A DNA stretch of 64,000 nt from Chamaesiphon minutus PCC 6605. GTDB taxonomy: Bacteria > Cyanobacteriota > Cyanobacteriia > Cyanobacteriales > Chamaesiphonaceae. The stretch is from NCBI RefSeq assembly GCF_000317145.1, contig NC_019697.1, positions 3,940,385 to 4,004,384 on the forward strand, written 5' to 3'. Below are positions 44,341 to 59,060 of the stretch, piece by piece. The notes under the pieces are model-generated. The model was not told where the DNA came from. It searched no databases and worked only from the letters and a program-made list of their open reading frames with translations. The translations under genes and the position numbers were made by a program. Position 1 is the stretch's first letter. The number at the start of each line of letters is the position of its first letter.

Positions 44341-45228
44341 ATGAAATCCCTCAAATCGCTATGCCACAATGCTGGCTTGACCCTCGTGGGTGCATTAACA
44401 TTGGCTGCTGCTTCGGCTGTTAGCCACAGTGAAAAAGCTGCTGCGATCGATCTGAAGTTTGACACTCCAGTCGGAACAGCAAACATCCCTGATATCCTTG
44501 GCCGAGGTCCTGGATTTAGCAGCAATGAAATCCGCTACACTAATGTGGCTCCAGGGGTTGATGCCAAGATTACCGCTACGGTGACTGGAACCAATTACTC
44601 CTTTCTAGGACATTACCCGAATTACTCTGCTAATACTGCCGAACCGAACGATGATGAGGCATTCAGATATCAAATTGCTACTAACCAAACTGGTCAGGGT
44701 CAAATGACCTACAAAATCGACCTCTTTAATAGTGGCGGCACTTTTACAACTGCTTTTCTTGCACCAGAGCTGAACTTTTTAATCTATGACGTAGATGGAG
44801 AAGCTATTCAAAATGAAGCTGTGCGAATCGCCAAAGGTACTGGCTTAGTCAGTTATCAAGTTGGTAGTTCGACTGCTGCATTGATTCCTACCGAAGATGC
44901 GACCAGCTATCTTTTTTCTGGACGGGGTGCAGACCAAGCTGAGAACAATACAAGCGGGGCTGCCATCTTTCGTTTTCAGAATGTGAACTCAGTCACGTTC
45001 CAATTTGAGGCAAATACAACAATACCGTTTGCTACTGCTCCTAATGTCGTGTTTAGTGCGCTCGACGGTGACTTGAGCTACATACCCTCATTCACTGGAA
45101 CTTTCAATGCAGCGGTTGATACCAGTGCTACCGCAATTCCCGAACCCTTTACCATTATTGGCACCCTCATCGGTGGTACCGCAGCATTCCGCATGAGAAA
45201 GAACCTAAAAATTGGCAACAAAGCGTAA
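44341..45228 (+). CDS. PEP-CTERM exported protein
   Basis: A 295-residue secreted protein. The signal peptide is MKSLKSLCHNAGLTLVGALT followed by LAAASA. A beta-rich extracellular body of about 230 residues follows, with no known domain. The last 30 residues are a PEP-CTERM sorting signal: IPEP (266-269), hydrophobic helix FTIIGTLIGGTAAF, then basic RMRKNLK. Such proteins are processed by an exosortase and usually go to the outer envelope or matrix; no exosortase gene is in this window. A terminator follows at 45267. A nearly identical tail survives as a relic at 58804. Confidence 0.88.
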   Translation: MKSLKSLCHNAGLTLVGALTLAAASAVSHSEKAAAIDLKFDTPVGTANIPDILGRGPGFSSNEIRYTNVAPGVDAKITATVTGTNYSFLGHYPNYSANTAEPNDDEAFRYQIATNQTGQGQMTYKIDLFNSGGTFTTAFLAPELNFLIYDVDGEAIQNEAVRIAKGTGLVSYQVGSSTAALIPTEDATSYLFSGRGADQAENNTSGAAIFRFQNVNSVTFQFEANTTIPFATAPNVVFSALDGDLSYIPSFTGTFNAAVDTSATAIPEPFTIIGTLIGGTAAFRMRKNLKIGNKA

Positions 45229-45266
45229 CTTAGGGAATATTGAATCAATTGATATTTTACTCAGAG

Positions 45267-45297
45267 AGACATCGTAATTAATTGCGGTGTCTTTTTT
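45267..45297 (+). terminator. Terminator of the PEP-CTERM gene
   Basis: An 8-bp stem (AGACATCG 45267-45274 with CGGTGTCT 45285-45292, one G-T pair) and six T residues. Confidence 0.75.
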
Positions 45298-45361: not shown

Positions 45362-45720
45362 GATTCGATCGGAGTTGGTGGTGCGATGCGGAGATCTACC
45401 CACCCCGCCCTACGGGCACCCCTCCGAGGAGGGGATTTTTTAGAATAGCCCTGTGGGCTAATGTGCATAAAAAAGATTAGTTAGGAATAAGCTACTCCTA
45501 GTCTTCTCATCAAAGAGCATTTGCTCTAGCCATTCCCTTGGGGAATAGCTAATGAAAATCCCCTCCTCGGAGGGGTGCCCGCAGGGCGGGGTGGGTAAAA
45601 ATCCCCTCCTCGGAGGGGTACCCGCAGGGCGGGGTGGGTAAAAATCCCCTCCTCGGAGGGGTGCCCGTAGGGCGGGGTGGGTTAGATCTCCGCATCGCAC
45701 CACCAACTCCCGATCGAATC
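45362..45720. mobile_element. 359-bp MITE-like element with 80-bp inverted arms
   Basis: The left arm (45362-45441) and right arm (45641-45720) are near-perfect inverted copies over about 80 bp, differing by two single-base indels. Each arm has an outer part (GATTCGATCGGAGTTGGTGG and onward) and an inner 43-bp unit that itself contains the palindrome CCCCTCCTCGGAGGGG. Two more direct copies of the 43-bp unit precede the right arm (45555-45640). The centre (45442-45554) holds further small palindromes. No transposase is encoded. Confidence 0.75.
45555..45683. repeat. Three tandem 43-bp palindromic units
   Basis: Units begin at 45555, 45598 and 45641, with exact 43-bp period and only a few substitutions. 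Each reads AAAATCCCCTCC-TCGGAGGGG, then GCCCGCAGGGC and GGGGTGGGTA. An inverted copy is at 45398-45440 and a diverged single copy at 59018-59060. There are no spacers between units, so this is not a CRISPR array. Confidence 0.85.
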
Positions 45721-45735
45721 TTCACACCCCCACAC

Positions 45736-45773
45736 ATGCCCACAGATCGACACTTACCAATTTATCTCGATCG
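45736..45773 (+). pseudogene. Duplicated 5' fragment of the cysteine desulfurase gene
   Basis: The first 38 bp from ATG match the start of the desulfurase gene at 46683 at 36 of 38 positions (MPTDRHLPIYLDR versus MPTDRQLPIYLDR). Resemblance extends about 25 bp upstream of each ATG. After it the frame continues with unrelated residues and stops. It is a relic, not a gene. Confidence 0.75.
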
Positions 45774-45829: not shown

Positions 45830-46156
45830 ATGCAAGCTCACCAAAATAGTATCAAAGTCAATATTCTGCTCCAGCAACGAGCAGACGGAAAAACTGTTGC
45901 TTCTGTGTTAGAAGTCCCTGACTGTACCGCTGAAGAAAATAGTCGAGAACAGGCTATTAGTAGTCTGCGAGACAATCTCATTAAGAAACTAGAGACAGTC
46001 GAAGTAGTTTCGCTAGAATTGCCCATGAATCAGCACAGAGAGAAGGATCGGGGATGGTTGAGATCTATAGGAATATTCAAGACAGATCCACAATTTGAAG
46101 AATTTCAACAAGGGATTCAATCTTACAGAGATGAATTGGATAGTTTTAATTCTTAG
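45830..46156 (+). CDS. Probable antitoxin, HicB-like N-terminus
   Basis: A 108-residue protein upstream of a PIN-domain toxin. The N-terminal part (VNILLQQRADGKTVASVLEV followed by PDCTAEENSREQAISSLRDN) has the strand-strand-strand-helix pattern of HicB-like antitoxins. The C-terminal part is charged and could wrap the toxin. It ends 21 bp before the toxin start on the same strand, a typical type II pair. The family call is by pattern and could be wrong in detail. Confidence 0.65.
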   Translation: MQAHQNSIKVNILLQQRADGKTVASVLEVPDCTAEENSREQAISSLRDNLIKKLETVEVVSLELPMNQHREKDRGWLRSIGIFKTDPQFEEFQQGIQSYRDELDSFNS

Positions 46157-46177: not shown

Positions 46178-46615
46178 GTGAGTATATGGATTTTAGATAC
46201 CGACCATTTATCTCTCTTACACAGAGAAAACTCACAACTTATAGAGCGGTTATCATTGCACCAACAGGATCGAGTAGTCATCACTATTGTTACTGCAGAA
46301 GAGCAATTACGCGGAAGGCTGAGTGTAATTAGCAAAGCATCCGACCCTAAAAGCAAAACATCGCTTTCTTTAGCTTATCAAAATTTGCGGTTGACTATTG
46401 AGAGTTTACAAGAATTTGAGCAAATAGATTTCGATCTTGAAGCAGAATCAATTTATCATCAACTGCGACAGCAAAAAATTAGAATTGGCACACAGGATTT
46501 ACGAATTGCCTCGATTGCCTTAGCAAATCAAGCTACTTTACTAACTCGTAACTATCGAGATTTTTCGCAAGTTCCTAATTTAATCATTGATGATTGGACG
46601 AGAGCGGATCGGTAG
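46178..46615 (+). CDS. VapC-like PIN-domain toxin
   Basis: A 145-residue PIN-domain ribonuclease starting with GTG. The acidic site is seen as Asp7 in ILDTDHLSLL, Glu41/Glu42 in TAEEQLRGRL, Asp107 in GTQDLRIASIAL and Asp128 in TRNYRDFSQ. These positions fit VapC toxins, which cleave tRNA or rRNA loops when freed from their antitoxin. With the gene at 45830 it forms a probable type II module. The pair lies between two copies of the desulfurase 5' end. Confidence 0.88.
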   Translation: MSIWILDTDHLSLLHRENSQLIERLSLHQQDRVVITIVTAEEQLRGRLSVISKASDPKSKTSLSLAYQNLRLTIESLQEFEQIDFDLEAESIYHQLRQQKIRIGTQDLRIASIALANQATLLTRNYRDFSQVPNLIIDDWTRADR

Positions 46616-46682
46616 GGGCGGCTAGATTCACACATCCAACCCCACCAGTCCAGATCGCATCTACATTCTTACACACCACCAC

Positions 46683-47858
46683 ATGCCCACAGATCGACAG
46701 TTACCAATCTATCTCGATCGACATGCCACCACACCAGTAGATCCGCGTGTCTTGGCGGCGATGCTGCCGTATTTTACCGAACATTTTGGCAATCCGACTA
46801 GTACTACCCACGAGTATGGGTGGACGGCAGAAGCGGCGGTAACTGGAGCTAGAGAAACGATCGCCACTGCTATCGGTGCCAGTCCTGAAGAAATTGTCTT
46901 TACCAGCGGTGCGACTGAAGCTAACAATCTCGCGCTCAAAGGTGTCGCCGAAGCTTATTTTGCCAAAGGGCAGCATATTATTACCCTGCAAACCGAACAT
47001 AACGCGGTTTTAGATCCTTGTAAATATCTCGAATCATTAGGATTTACAGTTACTTATTTACCAGTTCAGTCTGATGGATTAGTCGATCTTGACGAACTAA
47101 AAAATGCGTTTCGTCCCGATACGATCTTGGTATCGATAATGTCAGCTAATAATGAGATCGGCGTACTTCAGCCCTTAGTAGATATTGGTAAATTGTGTCG
47201 AGAAAACGGCGTTTTATTTCATACCGATGCCGCCCAATCGATCGGTCAAATTCCGCTCGATGTGGAGTTATTAAATATCGATCTGATGTCGATGACCGCT
47301 CATAAAGTGTATGGACCCAAAGGCATCGGCGCGCTCTACGTCCGTCGCCGCAATCCGCGCGTGAAGTTGTCGCCGCAGTTACACGGTGGCGGACACGAAC
47401 GGGGAATGCGATCGGGTACGCTCTATCCACCCCAAATCGTCGGCTTTGCCAAGGCTGTCGAATTCGGTATCGCCGAAATGGAGGTAGAAACAGCTAGATT
47501 GACGCAGCTCAGAGCGCGATTATGGTCGCAATTGAGTCAAATCGATGGCATCTATCTCAACGGCCATCCGACTCTCAGACTGCCCGGAAATCTGAATATT
47601 AGTATCGCTGGCGTCGATGGCAATGCCTTGTTATTGGGATTGCGTCCGACGGTGGCTCTTTCCTCTGGAGCCGCCTGTAGCTCGGCCAAAATCGAGCCTT
47701 CGCACGTCCTCAGAGCAATAGGACGCAGCGAATCTTTGGCATATGCAGCACTACGGTTCGGAATTGGGCACAATAATACAGTAGAGCAAATCGATCGAGT
47801 TGCCACTGCCACGATCGCCACGGTTCAAAGTCTGCGGAAGTTAGCTTTGAGATCGTGA
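46683..47858 (+). CDS. Cysteine desulfurase, IscS/NifS type
   Basis: A 391-residue PLP enzyme that takes sulfur from cysteine for Fe-S clusters and thiocofactors. The N-terminus YLDRHATTPVDPRVLAAM is normal apart from its copy upstream. PLP contacts are in TSGATEANNLALKG, HTDAAQSIGQIPLDV and the lysine of MTAHKVYGPKGIGALYV. The active-site loop LSSGAACSSAKIEPSHVL carries the persulfide Cys. Among cyanobacterial desulfurases it is of the IscS/NifS (group I) kind rather than SufS. It starts 67 bp after the toxin gene. Confidence 0.93.
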   Translation: MPTDRQLPIYLDRHATTPVDPRVLAAMLPYFTEHFGNPTSTTHEYGWTAEAAVTGARETIATAIGASPEEIVFTSGATEANNLALKGVAEAYFAKGQHIITLQTEHNAVLDPCKYLESLGFTVTYLPVQSDGLVDLDELKNAFRPDTILVSIMSANNEIGVLQPLVDIGKLCRENGVLFHTDAAQSIGQIPLDVELLNIDLMSMTAHKVYGPKGIGALYVRRRNPRVKLSPQLHGGGHERGMRSGTLYPPQIVGFAKAVEFGIAEMEVETARLTQLRARLWSQLSQIDGIYLNGHPTLRLPGNLNISIAGVDGNALLLGLRPTVALSSGAACSSAKIEPSHVLRAIGRSESLAYAALRFGIGHNNTVEQIDRVATATIATVQSLRKLALRS

Positions 47859-59017: not shown

Positions 59018-59060
59018 TAAATCCTCTCTGAAGAGGGGTGCCCTTAGGGCGGGGTGGGTT
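59018..59060. repeat. Single diverged copy of the 43-bp palindromic unit
   Basis: AAATCCTCTCTGAAGAGGGG, then GCCCTTAGGGC and GGGGTGGGTT: same order of palindromes as the 45555-45683 units, with several changes. Confidence 0.8.

Follow-up and report, generated by a model that had tools for sequence, protein, structure and literature searches.

The window, by which we mean the whole 64-kb stretch of Chamaesiphon minutus PCC 6605 DNA analysed here, contains a 359-bp intergenic element (Table 1). To its left lies a gene that has no Pfam match and appears PEP-CTERM-like by eye, and to its right a cysteine desulfurase gene, likewise identified by eye. Between element and desulfurase gene stands a toxin-antitoxin-like pair, whose first frame has no Pfam match and whose second carries a PIN domain. 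Two copies of the desulfurase start region, 80% identical (45700–45773 and 46642–46720), flank this pair, the DNA of which is 90% identical in the relative G004 (L069); the left-flank gene and the element have no match there.

A preliminary description had singled out near-perfect inverted arms, and alignment bore this out: 45362–45440 and 45640–45720, 79 and 81 bp long, share 79 matches over 81 columns, interrupted by two single-base gaps (98% identity by BLAST). Its 43-bp unit was likewise found in three direct tandem copies on the right, of which the second shares 98% and the third 95% identity with the first, and once inverted on the left. For the suggested folding into one giant hairpin, the predicted single-strand energy is -145.2 kcal/mol, as compared to a mean of -57.1 kcal/mol for 100 dinucleotide shuffles of the element, none of which came as low (z = -21). 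The unit had also been called palindromic; it is not one palindrome and consists of two short hairpins, CCCCTCC/GGAGGGG and GCCC/GGGC, together with a trailing GGGGTGG. Many copies of the unit share the AGATCTYCGC-like start of the right outer arm. An Rfam search returned nothing near the gathering score, the top match being anti-hemB (25.4 vs 49.5 bits).

Table 1. Features of the 359-bp element and its surroundings (window positions)
Feature	Position	Strand	Remarks
Left-flank gene (295 aa)	44341..45228		
Left outer arm (GATTCGATCGG...GGAGATCT)	45362..45397	-	inverted copy of right outer arm
Left 43-bp unit	45398..45440	-	triplex core 45400-45434
Spacer	45441..45554	.	between the units' inward-facing T/A tails
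Right unit 1	45555..45597	+	triplex core 45560-45594
Right unit 2	45598..45640	+	triplex core 45603-45637
Right unit 3	45641..45683	+	triplex core 45646-45680; makes the right arm with the right outer arm
Right outer arm (AGATCTCCGCATCGCACC...GAATC)	45684..45720	+	
Toxin-antitoxin-like pair, first frame	45830..46156		
Toxin-antitoxin-like pair, second frame	46178..46615		
Cysteine desulfurase gene	46683..47858		
Degenerate unit-core copy	59032..59059 (G000:C1:3999416-3999443)	+	1 mismatch to the core pattern; not triplex by the detector

Closer reading of the unit pointed to a three-stranded fold. CCCCTCC-TC-GGAGGGG forms a hairpin, and the GGGGTGG that follows repeats GGAGGGG in mirror order, a T facing the A, like the third strand of a purine-motif intrastrand triplex. 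Judged by sequence layout, each 43-bp unit is thus an intrastrand-triplex motif, all four in the window having the order Y-loop-R-loop-R' with a mirrored third strand. A detector for this layout, written with the window unit and the flanks of DUF559 genes of the same genome already seen, returned four sites in the 64-kb window, exactly the four units; five mononucleotide shuffles gave no site. Across all 146 standalone DUF559 loci described below, including 11 loci of the second scan that lack a motif, 26 of 80 distinct asymmetric purine arms have, on their 3' side, a third strand in exact mirror order (seven of these 26 match in direct order too, and no arm in direct order only), as compared to one of the 80 on the 5' side. 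Since an exact third strand is absent from 54 of the 80 arms, and the advantage of the mirror order falls to 31 vs 21 arms when one mismatch is permitted, mirror symmetry is supported yet not universal.

The preliminary description had asked for other copies of the element. At full length and with the same ends, the 359 bp have no second copy in the genome, whereas the building unit proved to be a dispersed family. The core pattern (28 positions, up to 3 mismatches) matches 61 places in the genome and its reverse none. The fetched loci, which exclude the copy at window position 59032, hold 61 units (up to 4 mismatches; longer consensus AAAAATCCCCTCCTCGGAGGGGTGCCCGTAGGGCGGGGTGGGTAGATCTCCGC) at 46 sites: 33 solo units, nine convergent pairs, two tandem pairs, one wide divergent pair and the '-+++' arrangement of the window, so that the usual pair is convergent (9/46) and the window layout is found nowhere else among these sites. 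Of 60 genomes searched, every one of the nine from the genus has unit matches, as do two from another genus in the same order. At seven of the 46 sites (240301, 969730, 1027260, 2397589, 2726438, 2850517 and 4062826), triplex motifs of other families lie within ~400 bp, as if the sites had been re-used.

Unit and family resemble a repeat class already described. According to Holder 2015 (PMC4666352), intrastrand triplex motifs (TM/TM_ECO/PIT) are present in many copies in cyanobacteria and form inverted A/B-type pairs in E. coli. The likeness to TM/PIT repeats as portrayed there comprises a pyrimidine arm, a purine arm and a mirrored G-rich third strand, many dispersed intergenic copies, and inverted pairs; compared with TM_ECO, the window unit has a different first loop, an additional GCCC..GGGC hairpin in loop 2 and an AGATCT end.

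With respect to the history of the site, the near-identity of the arms had been taken as a sign of recent formation or gene conversion. Recent formation is not supported, because the orthologous site of relative G003 already holds the same tail-to-tail, divergent pair, with one right unit in place of the window's three and a different left hairpin loop; in G003 (L072), further repeat-like sequence lies within that loop. G007 has other C-rich repeats at the orthologous site, and G005 a short palindrome before the desulfurase gene, with an apparent motif remnant and with arms that differ from those of the window element. For reading a target-site duplication, the eight relatives offer no clean empty counterpart of the site: these three carry repeats there, and in the other five a different gene (bcp-like by eye) precedes the desulfurase gene and no such element was seen. 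Gene conversion fared somewhat better: in the outer arms, the left and right sides of the window element match in 36 of 39 columns, the left sides of the window element and G003 in 32 of 39, the right sides of both in 36 of 39, and the two sides of G003 in 29 of 38. The left outer arm of the window element is therefore nearer to its own right arm than to its orthologue, which, over so short a stretch, lends weak support to homogenisation of the arms inside the window palindrome. In our reading, the window element is a non-autonomous inverted pair that was inherited; one of its units has been triplicated, and its arms were perhaps homogenised.

Variation of this kind extends to other members of the family. 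Of eight unit sites taken up, five were compared across species, and the two that were readable over both flanks both vary. The first holds a solo unit in the window's genome (G000), a divergent pair in G005, a motif of another family in G007 and no unit in G008 and G006; the second has a solo unit in G000, two motif types in G002 and G004, a divergent pair in G005 and no unit in G007. Re-use of the same places fits these data, because sites hold different families in different species and seven of the 46 sites in the window's genome are mixed.

Triplex motifs of this and other families turned out to accompany a nuclease gene. Four DUF559 matches are present in the window's genome; three (L064, L065, L066) adjoin triplex motifs, and the fourth (L067), in which DUF559 is part of a 341-aa frame, has no adjacent one. 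A phylum-wide sample of Cyanobacteriota comprised 83 DUF559 matches in frames of up to ~210 aa, of which 60 were hand-picked and 23 left for last as a hold-out; L164 and L165, both from the window's genome and with flanks already seen, are among the 60, and L065, also seen, is among the 23. A motif lies no more than 250 bp from 53 of the 60 hand-picked standalone loci, and no more than 50 bp from 48 of them; control ORFs of the same regions have one in 59 of 746 cases (14/234 size-matched, 44/465 larger). Gene bounds in this first set are longest-ORF calls, and at least L138, L157, L161 and L199 look like shadow frames; domain bounds, used for the hold-out and non-redundant counts, give 51 instead of 53 of 60. 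The same detector found a motif at 15 of the 23 hold-out loci vs 8 of 273 controls (p 3e-14), making 66 of 83 standalone loci under the uniform rule for gene bounds. As the hold-out association was lower in rate and unchanged in sign, we kept our odds.

A second scan, of GTDB genomes, extended this pattern. Among the best 80 of 575 confirmed matches, assigned to phylum groups by hand from their record titles, standalone loci carry a motif in 21 of 25 gut Cyanobacteriota-like or unnamed cases (controls 2/195) and in 32 of 39 cases from other phyla (controls 18/351). Merging 60 and 64 loci of the two sets and thinning them to <70% identity left 94 non-redundant loci from several phyla, 77 with a motif within 250 bp vs 61 of 1003 control ORFs (Fisher p ~1e-62), and 43 with motifs on both sides. 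Control ORFs with an adjacent intergenic gap of at least 150 bp have a motif in 47 of 577 cases. DUF559 domains in long frames are also above their controls in the first set (4/20 vs 4/240), and have a motif in 1/8 and 3/8 cases of the two groups of the second scan. No motif within 250 bp accompanies 17 of the 94 non-redundant and 8 of the 23 hold-out loci, so that the hand-picked loci gave a better result than those outside that set. In several phyla, triplex motifs adjoin standalone DUF559 genes at a far higher rate than they do other genes. One genome (G019) has unit matches and no DUF559 match at E 1e-15. In a literature search, with subscription journals mostly outside its coverage, none of the papers returned connects DUF559 with triplex or palindromic repeats. 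The sections of Holder 2015 (PMC4666352) considered here name no gene class associated with TM/PIT repeats, in contrast to the nuclease family linked to them here.

As to the protein, Vsr uses a set of E, D and H residues, and the I-Bth0305I-type homing endonuclease bears the label EDxHD. Compared with the PDB, a structural model of DUF559, built on 28 sequences (mean pLDDT 90), matched NGO0050 and the domain of the I-Bth0305I homing endonuclease, with a weaker match to Vsr; three residues of the model, E18, D47 and H64, do not vary across the alignment. The gene beside the repeats is thus predicted to encode a nuclease of the homing/Vsr fold, and we infer that DUF559 may cleave the motif. The likeness to I-Bth0305I-type and Vsr enzymes lies in this fold; the difference is that here a standalone gene is flanked by repeats, and that the target would be the repeat and not a unique gene site. 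PADLOC yielded weak partial matches only. The closest named protein family is E. coli YcjD (DUF559), the motif of which differs in sequence from that of the window; cyanobacterial proteins fall below the cut-off in the YcjD model of NCBIfam. TM_ECO no. 9 (Holder Table 1) lies, by coordinates, 168 bp from the 3' end of ycjD (L087, 10408–10761), and the motif was confirmed in the sequence.

Motifs of related nucleases resemble each other across families. Protein distance correlates with motif distance over 53 loci (rho 0.37), and does so for pairs from different host families as well (rho 0.34), with none of 2000 permutations as high in either case. For the window's own unit, an intact DUF559 gene in G004 and G006 directly adjoins an inverted pair of this very unit; the orthologue in the window's genome has an internal stop, and the same 385-aa gene neighbours all three, in each of which the reading frame passes through a unit. 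G003 retains a fragment of this partner nuclease, with no unit match in the fetched stretch. Because the matching gene in the window's genome is interrupted, present nuclease activity may be low there. L140, from another family, ranks second closest to the putative cognate among 60 cyanobacterial DUF559 domains, and its motif is the closest to the window's unit among the 53 loci. Over all 53 loci, similarity to the cognate nuclease shows no relation to motif distance from the window unit (rho -0.07, p 0.6), so that only the closest relatives of the presumed cognate fit. Two DUF559 ORFs (L228, 1297–1842; L229, 828–1358) run through a triplex unit, giving ..DLPTPPVGHPSEEGI.. near the N-terminus.

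Joint movement of gene and repeat is suggested by one locus, L066, in the window's genome. Here, a motif on the plus strand, a motif on the minus strand and DUF559 follow the stop codon of metH (named by eye), and a 155-bp, 97% identical copy of the metH 3' end comes after this cassette (1128–1283 and 1901–2055). Seven metH matches were found in six of eight relatives; all six readable metH ends (G001, G002, G003, G006 and two in G004) are free of DUF559 DNA matches and of motifs, and the seventh match (G007) ends at a contig end. The simplest reading is that the cassette would have inserted at metH in this lineage. It is the one case of joint insertion of gene and repeat at an otherwise empty site, and its motif family differs from that of the window. 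As a general mark of DUF559 insertion, target duplications did poorly: among the 112 of 124 loci flanked on both sides, nine have one, as compared to 11 of 375 controls (p 0.03), and some of these may be unmasked repeats.

These observations have to be set against a passive origin, in which motifs arise and shift through faulty replication where the DNA is folded, and DUF559 genes do no more than settle or persist beside such unstable sites. Holder 2015 (PMC4666352) links the motifs with rearranged loci and reports no association with mobile elements, and both the 33 solo units among the 46 sites and the 8 of 23 hold-out genes without a motif would fit such an origin. However, it leaves unexplained why related motifs accompany related nucleases across host families, why motifs adjoin DUF559 in long frames less often than standalone genes (4/20 vs 53/60), and why gene and repeats appear together at metH. 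We consider it unlikely on balance.

Improbable, in our view, is a MITE with 80-bp terminal inverted repeats moved by some transposase. The long, near-identical inverted arms and the intergenic position would suit it, as would another G005 site with a similar pair, the outer arms of which also look inverted by eye, yet the sequence past AGATCTCCGC is not common to the other copies read and G003 already has a pair at the same site. At full length, only the element itself is present in the genome; lacking a second copy that shares their ends, the 359 bp do not make a MITE with defined ends.

Movement of a REP/BIME-type element by RAYT, the Y1 tyrosine transposase, is more doubtful still. As described in PMC3733652, REP/BIME repeats share with our units the short palindromic form, the occurrence as solo copies or inverted pairs and a cognate nuclease gene flanked by them; the pairing of short palindromes in inverted orientation is how REP elements are laid out, and the genome has five Y1_Tnp matches. 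The nuclease here, in contrast, is DUF559, with a Vsr-like and not a Y1 fold, and units in the window's genome lack an adjacent RAYT. None of the five Y1_Tnp loci has a triplex motif, 1.5-kb flanks included, or a convincing unit match, and four adjoin other, GTAG-like repeats by eye. These four (L060–L063) are RAYT-like genes next to GTAG-like palindromic repeats of other families. The earlier statement that no transposase accompanies the element thus holds for a search of the Y1 type, which gave none with matching ends; a candidate partner nuclease, DUF559, was found instead. Least probable of all is that the element terminates transcription in both directions or regulates its neighbours at the RNA level: a T run follows each hairpin and four of five terminator-like matches are units (0.8 expected in shuffles), but the upstream gene already has a terminator-like hairpin of its own (45263–45296), kept in G003 and G007, and such a role would leave the link to DUF559 unexplained.

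The element is, we think, probably a non-autonomous, tail-to-tail pair of triplex repeats belonging to a family that goes with a standalone DUF559 nuclease of the Vsr/homing-endonuclease fold. The nuclease would recognise and nick the folded motif; through repair, a copy of the motif, with or without the gene, would reach a new site or one already occupied, much as in homing. In the window, one unit of an inherited inverted pair would then have been joined by two further tandem copies, and the likeness of the arms may be due to gene conversion or to template switching within the hairpin.

Beyond this locus, it seems to us an even call whether standalone DUF559 genes and triplex repeats form one widespread, homing-like mobile class in bacteria, in which the nuclease reads the three-stranded fold and spreads the repeats, nuclease clades have diverged together with motif families, and the PIT/TM repeats of E. 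coli, Neisseria and cyanobacteria, like the window element, are non-autonomous members. Triplex repeats themselves were already known, without a mobiliser; our data suggest nuclease-linked repeats to be a so far unrecognised mode of spreading. The tie between DUF559 and triplex motifs gives both nuclease and repeat a testable role, and if a nuclease does recognise the triplex fold, this would be a new route by which repeats spread.
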